Shown piece by piece: positions 13,516 through 17,842 of a stretch of DNA of 64,000 nt. This DNA comes from Varunaivibrio sulfuroxidans. Lineage in GTDB: Bacteria; Pseudomonadota; Alphaproteobacteria; Rhodospirillales; Magnetovibrionaceae. The position numbers and the translations under genes were made by a program. Within the stretch, counting starts at the first letter, position 1. Every line of letters begins with the position of its first letter. Where the stretch lies: positions 1,873,001 to 1,937,000 of the forward strand of contig NZ_CP119676.1 of assembly GCF_029318635.1 (NCBI RefSeq). The letters run 5' to 3'. A model generated the notes under the pieces. That model did not search any database. It was not told where the DNA came from and saw nothing but the letters and a program-made list of their open reading frames with translations.

Positions 13516-15171
13516 ATGACGAAAGTCATCATCTTGGGCGGCGGATTTGGCGGCGTTTTCACGGCCAAACATCTAAAAAAAATCGCTCCACCGGACACCG
13601 ACATCCGCCTGATCAGCGAAAACAACTATTTTACCTTCCAACCCCTTCTGCCCGAAGTCGCCGCCGGGGCGATCGGGGCCTCGGATTCGGTGACGCCGCT
13701 GCGCGTCCTGCTGCCCGGCGTGCGCACCGTGATGGGCGAAGTGCGCGCCATCGATCTTGCCCGTAAAAACGTCGATATCGTTCAGGGCTCCAAGCGCCGC
13801 ATCAAAACCATGACCTACGATCATCTGGTGTTGGCGCTGGGCCAGGTGGTGCATCTGTCGCGGGTGCCCGGCCTCGAAGAACACGCCTTCCCGATCAAAC
13901 ATTCCGCCCACGCCTTGCGTCTGCGCAACCACGTTATCAACTGCCTGGAATACGCCGACAGTGTCGATGACCCACAAATCAAGGCGCGACTGCTGACCTT
14001 CGTGGTCGTCGGCGCAGGCTTTTCCGGAGTCGAAACGGTGGGCGAAATCAAGGATATGATCGACCGTTCCTTGAAATTTTACCCCAACATCGCCAAGGCC
14101 GACGTGCGTACCGTTTTGGTTGAATTTTCCGATCGTATCTTGGGCGAGCTCCCCGAAAAATTGGCCAATTACGCCCAGGAGCGCCTCGCCCGCCAGGGCA
14201 TCGATGTGTGGTTGAACACCGCCGTTAAATCGGCCAGCGCGACCACCGTGGAAATGGCCGATGGACGCATCCTGACCAGTTCAACCGTCGTCGCCACCAT
14301 CGGCAACGGTCCGTCTCCCTTGATCGAGGCGCTCGATATCGAAAAGGAACGCGGTCGCCTGAAGGTGGATCGCTTCATGCGTATTCCCGGCGTAGACGGC
14401 GCATGGGCGGTCGGCGATGCGGCGCTGATCCCCCTGACCGACACCCCCGAGGGTCCGCGCGATTACGCCCCGCCGACCGCCCAGTTCGCGGTGCGCGAAG
14501 GCCAGCAACTGGCCGCCAATGTCGCCGCCCAAATTTCCGGCGCACCGCTAAAGGCGTTCCATTACGTGCCGCGCGGGGCGATGGCGTCGATCGGCAACTA
14601 CCGCGCCGTCGCCAGCACCATGGGGGTGCAACTGCACGGCGTTCTCGCCTGGCTGCTGTGGCGCACATTTTATTTGGGCATGCTGCCCGGCGCGGTGACC
14701 AAGCTGCGCGTGGTTTTGAACTGGGCACTTGACCTGTTCGCCCCTAGAAATTTAGGGCAGGTTCAGGAGGTCAAGAAGCCGTCGGCAAAATACATGCGTT
14801 TCTCCGAAGGCCAGGAAGTTTTCGAGCCGGGCATGATCCCCGACGGCTTCTACACCATTGTTTCGGGGAGTTGCCGACTGGAGATTCCTCGCGATGACGG
14901 CGGCGCGCCCTACCGGCGCGACCTTAAGGTCGGCGATCACTTCGGCGAACGGGTGTTGTTCCGCCAGCAATTGCGCACCGGGCGCGTGACCGCCCTGGAA
15001 GACAGCCGGGTCTTGCGCGTGCAGCGCGACGATTTCTGGCGCTTGTCGTCCTCTTTTCCCATGCTGGAAAAATATTTCAAGAACTACATCGCCGAAAATT
15101 TCCCCGAAGACCTTCGCCCCCATGTTTTGGGGGGGACGGAACGCGATACAAAGACGCCACCTAAAAGCTGA
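13516..15171 (+). CDS. ndh: Type II NADH dehydrogenase with C-terminal cyclic-nucleotide-binding-like domain
   Basis: A 551-residue protein. Residues 1-400 form a two-dinucleotide-fold NDH-2: VIILGGGFGGV binds FAD, VVVGAGFSGVET binds NADH, and AWAVGDAA is the second FAD contact. It passes electrons from NADH to quinone without pumping protons. After an amphipathic stretch around residues 385-405, residues about 430-535 form a cNMP-binding beta-roll with GDHFGER and RTGRVTA, so the Glu and Arg positions of the phosphate-binding cassette appear kept. ATG 13516 is preferred; 13501 is also possible. The fusion suggests allosteric control by a nucleotide, which is inference. Confidence 0.85.
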   Translation: MTKVIILGGGFGGVFTAKHLKKIAPPDTDIRLISENNYFTFQPLLPEVAAGAIGASDSVTPLRVLLPGVRTVMGEVRAIDLARKNVDIVQGSKRRIKTMTYDHLVLALGQVVHLSRVPGLEEHAFPIKHSAHALRLRNHVINCLEYADSVDDPQIKARLLTFVVVGAGFSGVETVGEIKDMIDRSLKFYPNIAKADVRTVLVEFSDRILGELPEKLANYAQERLARQGIDVWLNTAVKSASATTVEMADGRILTSSTVVATIGNGPSPLIEALDIEKERGRLKVDRFMRIPGVDGAWAVGDAALIPLTDTPEGPRDYAPPTAQFAVREGQQLAANVAAQISGAPLKAFHYVPRGAMASIGNYRAVASTMGVQLHGVLAWLLWRTFYLGMLPGAVTKLRVVLNWALDLFAPRNLGQVQEVKKPSAKYMRFSEGQEVFEPGMIPDGFYTIVSGSCRLEIPRDDGGAPYRRDLKVGDHFGERVLFRQQLRTGRVTALEDSRVLRVQRDDFWRLSSSFPMLEKYFKNYIAENFPEDLRPHVLGGTERDTKTPPKS

Positions 15172-15217
15172 GCGCGCACCCCCGAAAAATCCCTTTCGGC
15201 CGATCACCCTTAAAAAT

Positions 15218-15233
15218 TGGCACGCCCCTTGCT
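15218..15233 (+). promoter_or_regulatory. Sigma-54 (-24/-12) promoter
   Basis: TTGGCACG, four bases, then TTGC is an exact match to the sigma-54 consensus. GG (15219-15220) and GC (15231-15232) are separated by exactly 10 bp. Transcription should start near 15244. No clear enhancer-binding site (NtrC or NifA type) was recognised upstream, where the DNA is the 3' end of the NDH-2 gene. Confidence 0.8.
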
Positions 15234-15243
15234 TATATCTTTT

Positions 15244-15400
15244 ACAGAACCCCAGTGGATGCGGACCACGGCCTCCCCCTCCTGAGAAGCCCCGCCCCAT
15301 TAGGATCGTAGATCTCTTACAAATAATAATAAGTGTTAAAAAAATACAGTTTTACGGCACCTAACCCCTTCGTGATCCCCCTCCACGAAGGGGTTATTTT
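15244..15400 (+). ncRNA. Candidate sigma-54-dependent small RNA
   Basis: A transcript from the promoter at 15218 would run about 155 nt to the hairpin at 15363-15395, or about 218 nt to the terminator at 15439-15461. No reading frame with a good ribosome site lies within it. It contains CCTCCCCCTCC near 15272 and the terminator-loop sequence ATCCCCCTC, both able to pair with Shine-Dalgarno sequences. Such C/U-rich loops are typical of several alphaproteobacterial trans-acting small RNAs. Sigma-54-driven small RNAs are established in other proteobacteria (Qrr, CrcZ, NrsZ). The call is inference from promoter plus terminator. Confidence 0.55.
15363..15400 (+). terminator. Intrinsic terminator-like hairpin
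   Basis: AACCCCTTCGTG and CACGAAGGGGTT form a perfect 12-bp stem with a 9-nt C-rich loop, followed by ATTTTAT. The T-run is short (four), so termination may be partial. The stem also hides AAGGGG, a possible ribosome site for the 29-codon frame at 15401. Confidence 0.6.
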
Positions 15401-15438
15401 ATGCCTAAAGCACAAGATATTCCGTATTCTCTGCGCAT

Positions 15439-15461
15439 CCGCCCTAAAGAGGCGGTTTTTA
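15439..15461 (+). terminator. Second intrinsic terminator
   Basis: CCGCC, a 7-nt loop, then GGCGG followed by five T. It lies 44 bp after the first hairpin on the same strand and would catch read-through of the sigma-54 transcript. Confidence 0.6.
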
Positions 15462-15661
15462 TACATCTCGGCGAAATGGCCTGCGCGTGAAGATCGCCTT
15501 TTTTCAATTTTACCTTCACCTCTATCGTTTTTTGCCGAACAATCCCGTAATGCACCGCACGCGAAGAAAGTTGCATTTTAAAAATTGCAAAACGCGAATT
15601 TCCCCCCTTGGTCGGGGCGTTGTCGCCACACGCGGTAATCGGCGCGGCGAAAAAAACAAAT

Positions 15662-15689
15662 AAAAAAAAGCCGGGCATAAATGCCCGGC
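15662..15689 (-). terminator. Strong intrinsic terminator (minus strand)
   Basis: GCCGGGCA, loop of 4, TGCCCGGC, and on the minus strand eight consecutive T. It is 250 bp beyond the lysR stop, too far to be simply its terminator, and is preceded by several hairpins on the same strand. Confidence 0.85.
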
Positions 15690-15835
15690 GAGTTTAACAG
15701 GGAGGCTTCACGTCTGGGAGACGTCGGACTCGCTCAGCGTCCCAAGGGGGGGAGGAGGGGTGCGAGCAGAGCCCGTTTTCGGGCCTAAGCCCGAAGGGGA
15801 GAAAATGTTGCGGTGCAACATCAACTGTTTTGAAT
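15690..15835 (-). ncRNA. Candidate structured small RNA, minus strand
   Basis: Read on the minus strand this region holds, in order, the perfect inverted repeat at 15805-15821, hairpins TTCGGGC-CTTA... against GCCCGAA (about 15778-15796), a pyrimidine run of CCTCCTCCCCCCC type (about 15745-15758), the 6-bp hairpin at 15710-15724, and then the strong terminator. Hairpins, an anti-Shine-Dalgarno run and a T8 terminator are the usual small-RNA signature. It could also be the 3' UTR of lysR. No promoter was identified. Confidence 0.35.
15805..15821. repeat. Perfect 7-bp inverted repeat
   Basis: ATGTTGC, GGT, GCAACAT. The spacing resembles regulator operators (for example TGC-N3-GCA sites of PhaR type), but the binding protein is unknown. 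It lies between the candidate small RNA and the lysR 3' end. Confidence 0.4.
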
Positions 15836-15937
15836 ATACGGAGTTCATCCAAGCAGGGCTACCCCAATGGACGCAATGCCGATATGCAATAAACGCATAC
15901 CTATTGATTATTCTAATGCTAAAACGACTGCCTCGGC

Positions 15938-16825
15938 CTACGCCATCTCTCCGGCGATTTTCCGCAACAAGAAATCTCTGAACACGGCGATTCTTTTCGA
16001 ATTCCTCAGTTCATCGGGATAGACGAAGAAACTGTCGAAACTCGGTCCTTCCAATTCAGGCAGGACTTCGACCAGGGTACTGGTGTCCCGACAGATATAA
16101 TCGGGAAGAGCGGCGATCCCCAGTCCACTTTGGGCGGCGCGAAAAATACCGTAGATGCTGTTGACCTTCAAGACCGGACGGCGCGTTTTCTCTCCGGCCC
16201 CTTCGCCAAGAAGCCAGTTGAGGCTGGAGACCGGAGGCTTCGCGTCTTCACCGTAAATAATCAGGCGATGGTTATCCAAATCCTGGGGGGTTTTGGGAAT
16301 GCCGAACGCCTTGAGATATTCGGGCGCAGCATAGACCCGGTAGCGCATCTCCATCAAATGGCGCTGCACCAAATCGGGTTGGGTCGGTGGGCGCATGCGG
16401 ATCGCAACGTCGGCCGCGCGCATGGACAAGTCCAGCTCGGACTCGGACAACACCAAGGAGACGTCGATATCCGGGTAGGCGTCGAGGAATTCACGAATGC
16501 GCGGGGTGAGCCAAATCGACCCGAAGGCGACCGTGGTGGTGATCTTAAGGGGGCCTTGCGGGCGGTTTTTGCTGTCGCTGATGCGCTGGGACGTCGCCGC
16601 CAGCTTGGCCGAGATGTCCCGCGTCGCCCGATACAAAAGTTCGCCCTGTTCGGTAAGAATAAGGCCCCGGGCATGACGGTGGAACAAGGGCGCGTGCATG
16701 GTCTCCTCAAGGGCGCTGATTTGCCGACTGACCGCCGACTGACTGAGGGTCAACGCCTCGCCGGCGTGGGTAAAACTTCCCACTTCGGCGACCGTGTGAA
16801 AAATTCTTAATTTATCCCAGTCCAT
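15938..16825 (-). CDS. LysR-family transcriptional regulator
   Basis: A 295-residue LysR regulator. The N-terminal winged helix (FHTVAEVGSFTHAGEAL, LSQSAVSRQISALE) is followed by a periplasmic-binding-like effector domain from about residue 90. It is the second gene after trxB on the same strand with 69 bp between, a pairing seen in other Rhodospirillales. The effector and targets cannot be told from sequence; a redox link through trxB is only contextual. Confidence 0.9.
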   Translation of the reverse strand: MDWDKLRIFHTVAEVGSFTHAGEALTLSQSAVSRQISALEETMHAPLFHRHARGLILTEQGELLYRATRDISAKLAATSQRISDSKNRPQGPLKITTTVAFGSIWLTPRIREFLDAYPDIDVSLVLSESELDLSMRAADVAIRMRPPTQPDLVQRHLMEMRYRVYAAPEYLKAFGIPKTPQDLDNHRLIIYGEDAKPPVSSLNWLLGEGAGEKTRRPVLKVNSIYGIFRAAQSGLGIAALPDYICRDTSTLVEVLPELEGPSFDSFFVYPDELRNSKRIAVFRDFLLRKIAGEMA

Positions 16826-16894
16826 GCGTCCCCCGATCGTGACGTTGCGTTAAGACCCGTGGCGCACGGCGAGGAGCGCGCGATCACCCCCATC

Positions 16895-17842
16895 CTAGTC
16901 GTCATGCCCGGCCAGGAATCGCTCGGCCTCAAGCGCGCTCATGCAGCCGGTTCCCGCGGCGGTCACCGCCTGGCGATAGATCTTGTCCTGCACGTCGCCG
17001 GCGGCGAAAACCCCCGGTACGGAGGTCGCCGTCGTGCCGGGTCGAGTCAAGATGTAGCCCTCCCGATCCATATCGAGAAGTCCTTTAAACAAGTCGGTGT
17101 TAGGGCTGTGGCCGATGGCGATGAAAACGCCATCGACATCCAGGCGCGACGAGGCTCCGGTTTTAACATTCTTCAGCAGCGCCCCCGTGACCCCCGGCGG
17201 ATTGCTGTCGCCGACGATCTCTTCGAGTACGCTGTCCCAAACCACCTCCACCTTGGGATTGGCCAGAAGGCGATCTTGCAAAATTTTCTCTGCGCGCAGG
17301 GCGTCGCGGCGATGCACCAACGTCACCTTGGCGGCGTGGTTGGTGAGATAAATCGCCTCTTCCACGGCGGTATTGCCGCCGCCGATGACGGCGACGTTTT
17401 TGCCGCGATAAAAAAAGCCGTCGCAGGTCGCGCACGCCGATACGCCGTAACCCATAAATTTCTGTTCGCTTTCCAGGCCCAACCAGCGCGCCGAGGCGCC
17501 GGTGCACACGATCAAGGCGTCGGCGCCGTAGGTATCGCCGGAATCACCGACCAGACGAAAAGGGCGCGCCGACAGATCGGCGCTGACGATGGTGTCGTCG
17601 CGCATCGCGACGCCGACATGCTCGGCCTGCACCTGCATCTGCTCCATCAGCCAGGGTCCCTGGACCGCCTCGGCGAAGCCCGGATAATTTTCGACATCGG
17701 TGGTGATGGTCAGCTGCCCACCGGGTTGGATCCCCTTTACCAGCAAAGGCTCAAGGTTGGCGCGCGCGCTGTATATCGCGGCAGTGTACCCAGCGGGTCC
17801 GGATCCGATGATAAGGACCTTGGCGTGATGGTGCGTCGTCAT
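16895..17842 (-). CDS. trxB: Thioredoxin reductase
   Basis: A 315-residue low-molecular-weight thioredoxin reductase. It has the FAD fold GSGPAGYTAA, the redox-active CATC at residues 137-140, the NADPH fold GGGNTAVEEA with HRRD following, and the C-terminal AAGDVQDKIYRQ. It reduces thioredoxin with NADPH. It is probably the first gene of a trxB-lysR operon and is divergent from the Lrp-family gene. Confidence 0.97.
   Translation of the reverse strand: MTTHHHAKVLIIGSGPAGYTAAIYSARANLEPLLVKGIQPGGQLTITTDVENYPGFAEAVQGPWLMEQMQVQAEHVGVAMRDDTIVSADLSARPFRLVGDSGDTYGADALIVCTGASARWLGLESEQKFMGYGVSACATCDGFFYRGKNVAVIGGGNTAVEEAIYLTNHAAKVTLVHRRDALRAEKILQDRLLANPKVEVVWDSVLEEIVGDSNPPGVTGALLKNVKTGASSRLDVDGVFIAIGHSPNTDLFKGLLDMDREGYILTRPGTTATSVPGVFAAGDVQDKIYRQAVTAAGTGCMSALEAERFLAGHDD

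Follow-up and report, generated by a model that had tools for sequence, protein, structure and literature searches.

The question raised by this locus is whether an exact sigma-54 promoter with no recognisable gene behind it drives a short RNA of its own. The promoter, TTGGCACGCCCCTTGC, lies on the plus strand at 15217-15232 of the window (the whole 64-kb stretch of DNA that was analysed), matches the −24/−12 consensus exactly with a GG-to-GC spacing of 10 bp, and is predicted to start transcription near 15244; a sequence-only reading of the same DNA had placed it at about 15218 with the same spacing. It sits in a 766-nt gap between ndh (13516-15171, plus strand), which encodes an NDH-2-type NADH dehydrogenase with a C-terminal cyclic-nucleotide-binding domain (PF07992, PF22366, and PF00027; ATG at 13516, with query sequences started three codons downstream), and lysR (15938-16825, minus strand), identified by homology search as the conserved gene upstream of a SorX/MmgR-type RNA. 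That reading had also held that no gene follows the promoter, and none that is recognisable does: of the ORFs present on the plus strand of the gap, six lack a Pfam match, and a 29-codon ORF at 15401-15490 has neither a homologue in 59 other relatives nor an NCBIfam match.

The window contains only one exact copy of the core TGGCACGN4TTGC, the one at 15217-15232. Another 23 matches with one or two mismatches bring the total to 24, which is within chance expectation (mean 29.2). Genome-wide (3.07 Mb), five exact cores were found as compared to 3.0 expected under a first-order Markov model, and because chance alone gives about 3.0, this count is weak evidence by itself; cores with one mismatch were likewise not enriched (24 + 30 vs. 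40 + 42 in a reversed control). The extended form YTGGCACGN4TTGCW is present at three of the five exact loci (L032, L034, and L035), vs. an expectation under the Markov model of 0.45 genome-wide, or 0.033 per tenth of the genome at the composition of this gap, and shuffled versions of the gap contained a mean of 0.0003 exact cores.

The genome has one RpoN gene and matches Sigma54_activat nine times; six of these matches are strong, and the four of the six that were compared to NCBIfam score above its cut-offs as NifA, NtrC, NtrX, and FlbD. Two of the five exact sites lie 5′ of nifV and nifB, both of which are above NCBIfam cut-offs, and at these promoters a NifA site (TGT-N10-ACA) is found 69 and 89 nt ahead of the motif, respectively, so that at least these two exact sites look functional, as judged from their surroundings. 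Two promoters with one mismatch between nifV and nifB also have a NifA site; one (L053) precedes a gene for a solute-binding protein and the other (L054) a gene for a nitrogenase component. Another exact site precedes a response regulator gene with an ANTAR domain, which we read as NasT-like, and the last (L031; G000:C1:80573-80587, minus strand) precedes a 78-codon ORF that lacks a Pfam match and has AAGGAG in front of its ATG. Because RpoN, its activators, and calibrating sites such as those of nifV and nifB are all found, we conclude that the genome has a sigma-54 system that makes use of the exact motif.

Downstream of the promoter, an intrinsic terminator with a perfect 12-bp stem and a 9-nt C-rich loop lies at 15363-15395 (plus strand; −19.7 kcal/mol), one of only two places in the window with a perfect stem of at least 9 bp and at least six T within the next nine positions. 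A second, weaker hairpin follows at 15439-15460 (plus strand; stem-loop 15439-15455 plus T5; −8.1 kcal/mol), and the two correspond to the terminators earlier proposed at 15363-15395 and 15439-15461. A looser mechanical scan of 14000-17000 yielded no excess of terminator-like sites (5 vs. 4.8 in shuffles). The span from promoter to first terminator, together with its fold, predicts a short non-coding transcript of ∼150 nt on the plus strand (15244-15402). This 159-nt segment has a predicted fold of −44.3 kcal/mol, as compared to −30.6 ± 3.4 in shuffles (z = −4.0), with none of 200 shuffles as stable; part of this z-score is owed to the terminator itself. When the segment was compared to Rfam, nothing on the plus strand reached a gathering score and only weak matches were returned.

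The C-rich loops of anti-Shine-Dalgarno type that the sequence-only reading had noticed here hold up against shuffling: CCTCC occurs three times in the 159-nt segment, as compared to a shuffle mean of 0.46 (p = 0.007), and two of the three copies are predicted to be largely unpaired. According to predicted pairing probabilities, of the two CCUCC carried by CCTCCCCCTCC (15272-15282, plus strand), the second (15278-15282) is unpaired with a probability of 0.95-1.0, and the first (15272-15276) is mostly paired (unpaired probability 0.01-0.94); the third copy, that of the terminator loop, is mostly unpaired. Duplexes with 50 gene-start regions (46 from the window and four from other loci) had a mean energy of −24.5 vs. 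−23.0 for 60 mononucleotide shuffles (sd 0.46), which is weak support because the gene starts are uncurated. The segment is thus consistent with an RNA bearing anti-Shine-Dalgarno loops.

The likeliest reading of these observations, to which we give an even chance, is that the promoter is real and makes a short, lineage-specific non-coding RNA. An activator would fire the site at 15217-15232, RNA polymerase would initiate near 15244, and transcription would halt at the hairpin at 15363-15395, releasing a ∼150-nt non-coding RNA encoded in the 3′ flank of ndh. Such an RNA would display two C-rich loops, CCCCUCCU and AUCCCCCUC, capable of pairing with Shine-Dalgarno sequences, and its most likely effect would be reduced translation of some mRNAs. 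The motif, the terminator, the lack of a recognisable gene, the predicted fold, and the genes for RpoN and its activators are observed, whereas transcription of the RNA, its dependence on RpoN, and its pairing with mRNAs are inferred.

The sRNAs Qrr, CrcZ, and NrsZ of gammaproteobacteria are sigma-54 dependent and combine a −24/−12 promoter, a short RNA, and an intrinsic terminator. The predicted unit resembles them in all three respects, but it differs in being unconserved and in having a transcript that is predicted only, and its sequence relation to them is judged through Rfam. It is plausible that it is a lineage-specific member of this known class. The idea of an sRNA with an RpoN promoter is not new for alphaproteobacteria, because BjsR5a and BjsR6a of Bradyrhizobium are described as sRNAs with a predicted RpoN-type promoter (PMC5082802) and MmgR is listed as “RpoD RpoN” (PMC7143759). 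These RNAs likewise pair an alphaproteobacterial sRNA with an RpoN-like promoter; however, they belong to other loci and were seen in expression data, whereas the present case is drawn from sequence. A motif of this kind does not guarantee activity: most sigma-54 sites of Escherichia coli are reported to have seemed transcriptionally inactive (PMC4591121), and the Sinorhizobium meliloti sRNA EcpR1 has a predicted sigma-54 motif, much poorer than the one here, that is described as non-functional in the conditions tested (PMC4414408). RpoN, sigma54, suhB, mmgR, and NtrC all go unmentioned in the main text of a paper on sRNAs of nitrogen-starved Azospirillum brasilense (PMC7685610). Judged by titles and abstract openings, and with partial coverage of the literature, no publication describing the locus was found. 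The unit is of modest interest until its transcript is demonstrated; if the RNA is made, it would offer a small example, open to testing, of the way in which sigma-54 sRNAs originate: a gene with a terminator already in place gains one strong promoter in its 3′ flank. It would then also be asked which sigma-54 activator, among at least four with assigned names, drives this promoter.

The main rival, doubtful in our view yet one to be taken seriously, is that the motif is an orphan or relict site 3′ of ndh, present by chance or left from the promoter of a lost gene, to which the holoenzyme may bind without yielding a functional RNA, the hairpin being merely the terminator of ndh. The lack of conservation speaks for this alternative at every level searched. 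The DNA searches covered 60, 18, and 317 genomes, each of these counts including the own genome. Among the matches listed for 15180-15480, the best foreign match in the 59 other relatives had E = 0.021; 15172-15520 gave nothing at E ≤ 0.01 in the 17 other members of the family; and 15210-15400 gave, in the 316 other genomes of the order, a search that scored few candidates per genome, one match at E ≤ 0.001, covering the promoter only. This match (G113; 27 nt, 93%) precedes flgG. Among the weak matches listed for 15180-15480, those covering the promoter in L003 and L008 precede a hydrogenase small-subunit gene and again flgG, respectively. The window is also alone among 110 lysR loci (30 and 80 from two genome collections, window included) in having an exact core in the 1.5 kb that lie beyond lysR, the 109 others being without one; five other loci (L088, L093, L133, L139, and L173) have a core with one mismatch beyond lysR, four of them on this strand. 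These 110 loci are not all independent, because two pairs are seemingly the same species in both collections, and four of them hold fewer than 300 nt beyond lysR.

Conservation in relatives, a feature of anti-Shine-Dalgarno sRNAs, was thus not found for the sigma-54 unit, the genomes compared being all from outside the genus, and because it is without a homologue in these genomes we regard the unit as young or lineage-specific. Missing homologues elsewhere do not show that it is dead. The sequence-only reading had named an unconserved region between conserved flanks as the pattern that would count against an sRNA. This pattern is seen on the lysR side, where lysR and the RNA adjoining it are widespread in the order (lysR at E ≤ 1e-70 in 51 of 60 genomes, own included), but the ndh side affords no clean test, since ndh is patchy. 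At E ≤ 1e-60, a homologue of ndh was found in only 1 of 59 other relatives (L071; 68% identical), and as its context there is different, ndh was rejected as a synteny anchor.

The orphan-site alternative also draws on the terminator and on precedent. No terminator-like site was found on the plus strand by the scan between the ndh stop (15171) and 15363, and because no other site precedes it, the hairpin at 15363-15395 probably also ends ndh transcripts, for which ndh would need it. For eight intergenic sigma-54 sites of E. coli, any gene in a suitable orientation is reported to be over 300 bp away (PMC4591121). The absence of a detected activator site, described below, points the same way. Set against this alternative are the exact extended motif, found where chance gives very few, the functional appearance of nifV and nifB with their NifA sites among the other four exact sites, and the C-rich loops, which exceed chance expectation.

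Which activator would serve the promoter bears on both the orphan-site alternative and the preferred reading of a short, lineage-specific RNA. The latter had earlier been given a nitrogen or stress role. No NifA site (TGT-N10-ACA) occurs within 300 nt of the promoter at 15217-15232, a pattern present in 12 of 630 random 300-mers. The best NtrC-like match upstream, scored against an NtrC consensus, was 8/12, a value equalled or exceeded in ∼63% of 630 random 300-mers and hence at background; the promoter of a P-II (glnB/glnK-type) gene scored 9/12 in the same scan, and because this is not clearly apart from background either, the NtrC scan decides nothing. With the one significant foreign match preceding flgG, the grounds for the nitrogen label are gone, and a nitrogen-stress role of the predicted RNA is not supported. 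That the extended promoter resembles the flgG promoter of G113 is, in turn, no reason to call the RNA flagellar, because a sigma-54 core by itself is silent on which activator uses it.

A conserved sRNA of anti-Shine-Dalgarno type is present in the gap on the strand opposite the sigma-54 promoter. At 15730-15662 (minus strand), convergent with the sigma-54 unit, we identified by homology model, Rfam, covariation, and fold the core of what we read as a SorX/MmgR-type sRNA, i.e., an RNA of known kind; its nearest families are SorX and suhB/MmgR, and it is distinct from the sigma-54 transcript. The core consists of an ACGTC-TCCCA-GACGT hairpin, CCUCCCUGUU, and a GC-rich terminator, and thus has the hairpin, CCUCCCUG, and terminator with conserved pairing that characterize the family. 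Our model R1 scored the window copy, itself one of the 39 rows from which R1 was built, at 87.5 bits. The minus-strand RNA aligns along the full length of both Rfam models but remains below their gathering scores (SorX, RF02784: 32.6 bits vs. 46.6; suhB/mmgR, RF00519: 28.2 vs. 41), and no Rfam family reached its gathering score in 20 further loci. Because copies in the window and these 20 loci fall below the cut-offs, annotation by Rfam alone would miss them. In L167 (Sneathiella), a copy beyond lysR scores 50.4 bits and passes the SorX gathering score. The plus-strand RNA was itself considered as a SorX/MmgR copy and rejected, as the one significant match of R1 in the window is the minus-strand copy.

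This RNA is widespread. R1 finds matches in 58 of the 60 genomes searched, the own genome among them; 18 of its 39 rows come from these 60, and the own genome has five matches. GCCTCCCTG is found within 800 nt beyond lysR in 83 of the 110 loci; among the 27 loci without an exact copy, 23 were examined, 13 of which have an R1 match somewhere, and L080 was examined as well. A first alignment (A1) was drawn from these 83 loci, giving 80 usable stretches, 68 after thinning, and 40 picked by hand; a second cut (A2) went from 62 to 50 after thinning, with 39 used. In the 39 copies of A2, 92.1% of 507 pair cells are standard, and double changes are seen in 7 of 13 pairs, a number reached by 4 of 500 shuffles. 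The covariation score was 0.290, as compared to 0.107 in shuffles and no more than 0.106 on sliding; the number of pair types did not exceed that of shuffles (179 of 500). The structure behind this count was drawn by hand, and RNAalifold on A1 recovered the ACGTC hairpin only. The fold of 15662-15830 has a z-score of −6.3.

Near the start of the SorX/MmgR-type gene is a PhaR/AniA-like palindrome with a TGCACCGCA centre (15803-15823, minus strand), and 50 of 83 loci carry YGCRNYGCR in the stretch from lysR to the core, as compared to 323 of 1660 control stretches from the same loci. The mmgR operator of S. meliloti is printed as CAATTGTGCACCGCAGCATTA, the centre of which equals the TGCACCGCA of the window (PMC12542648), so that the palindrome is a putative operator like that at S. 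meliloti mmgR. There, NtrC is reported to induce mmgR and AniA to repress it (PMC7143759). The SorX/MmgR-type RNA after lysR is a better-supported result than the sigma-54 sRNA. Joining the two, we tentatively suggest, as a possibility we would not ourselves expect to hold, that a recently evolved sigma-54 sRNA with Shine-Dalgarno-mimicking loops was born in the 3′ flank of ndh, convergent with the ancient SorX/MmgR-type RNA, so that two anti-Shine-Dalgarno RNAs of different age and control would share the gap, the activator of the younger one being flagellar (FlbD), nitrogen-related, or other.

An improbable alternative is that the promoter acts on the convergent gene itself, by read-through from 15244 that interferes with, or is antisense to, the RNA at 15730-15662. 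The promoter does aim at this gene, ∼430 nt off, and a sigma-54 link near the locus is conceivable because mmgR of S. meliloti is reported to be under positive NtrC control (PMC7143759). However, two terminator-like hairpins lie between the promoter and the gene, and the 109 other lysR loci lack the arrangement with an exact core, widespread as the RNA is. Less probable still is that the promoter drives a small protein gene such as the 29-codon ORF at 15401-15490 (plus strand), which exists directly behind the terminator at 15363-15395 with AAGGGG (15388-15393, in the 3′ arm of the hairpin) 8-13 nt ahead of its ATG as a possible ribosome site; this product was rejected because the ORF stands behind a strong terminator, has the second one inside it, and has neither a homologue nor an NCBIfam match in the searches described above; the six other plus-strand ORFs of the gap lack a Pfam match.

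Three further features of the SorX/MmgR-type RNA were observed. CCCCTCCTCCCCCCC lies upstream of its core at 15746-15760 (minus strand). In the own genome, two of its further copies form a close pair at G000:C1:2474396-2474767 (minus strand; 85.4 and 62.5 bits). Beyond lysR, the RNA occurs in three consecutive copies in two Sneathiella loci (L160 and L167) and in L176.
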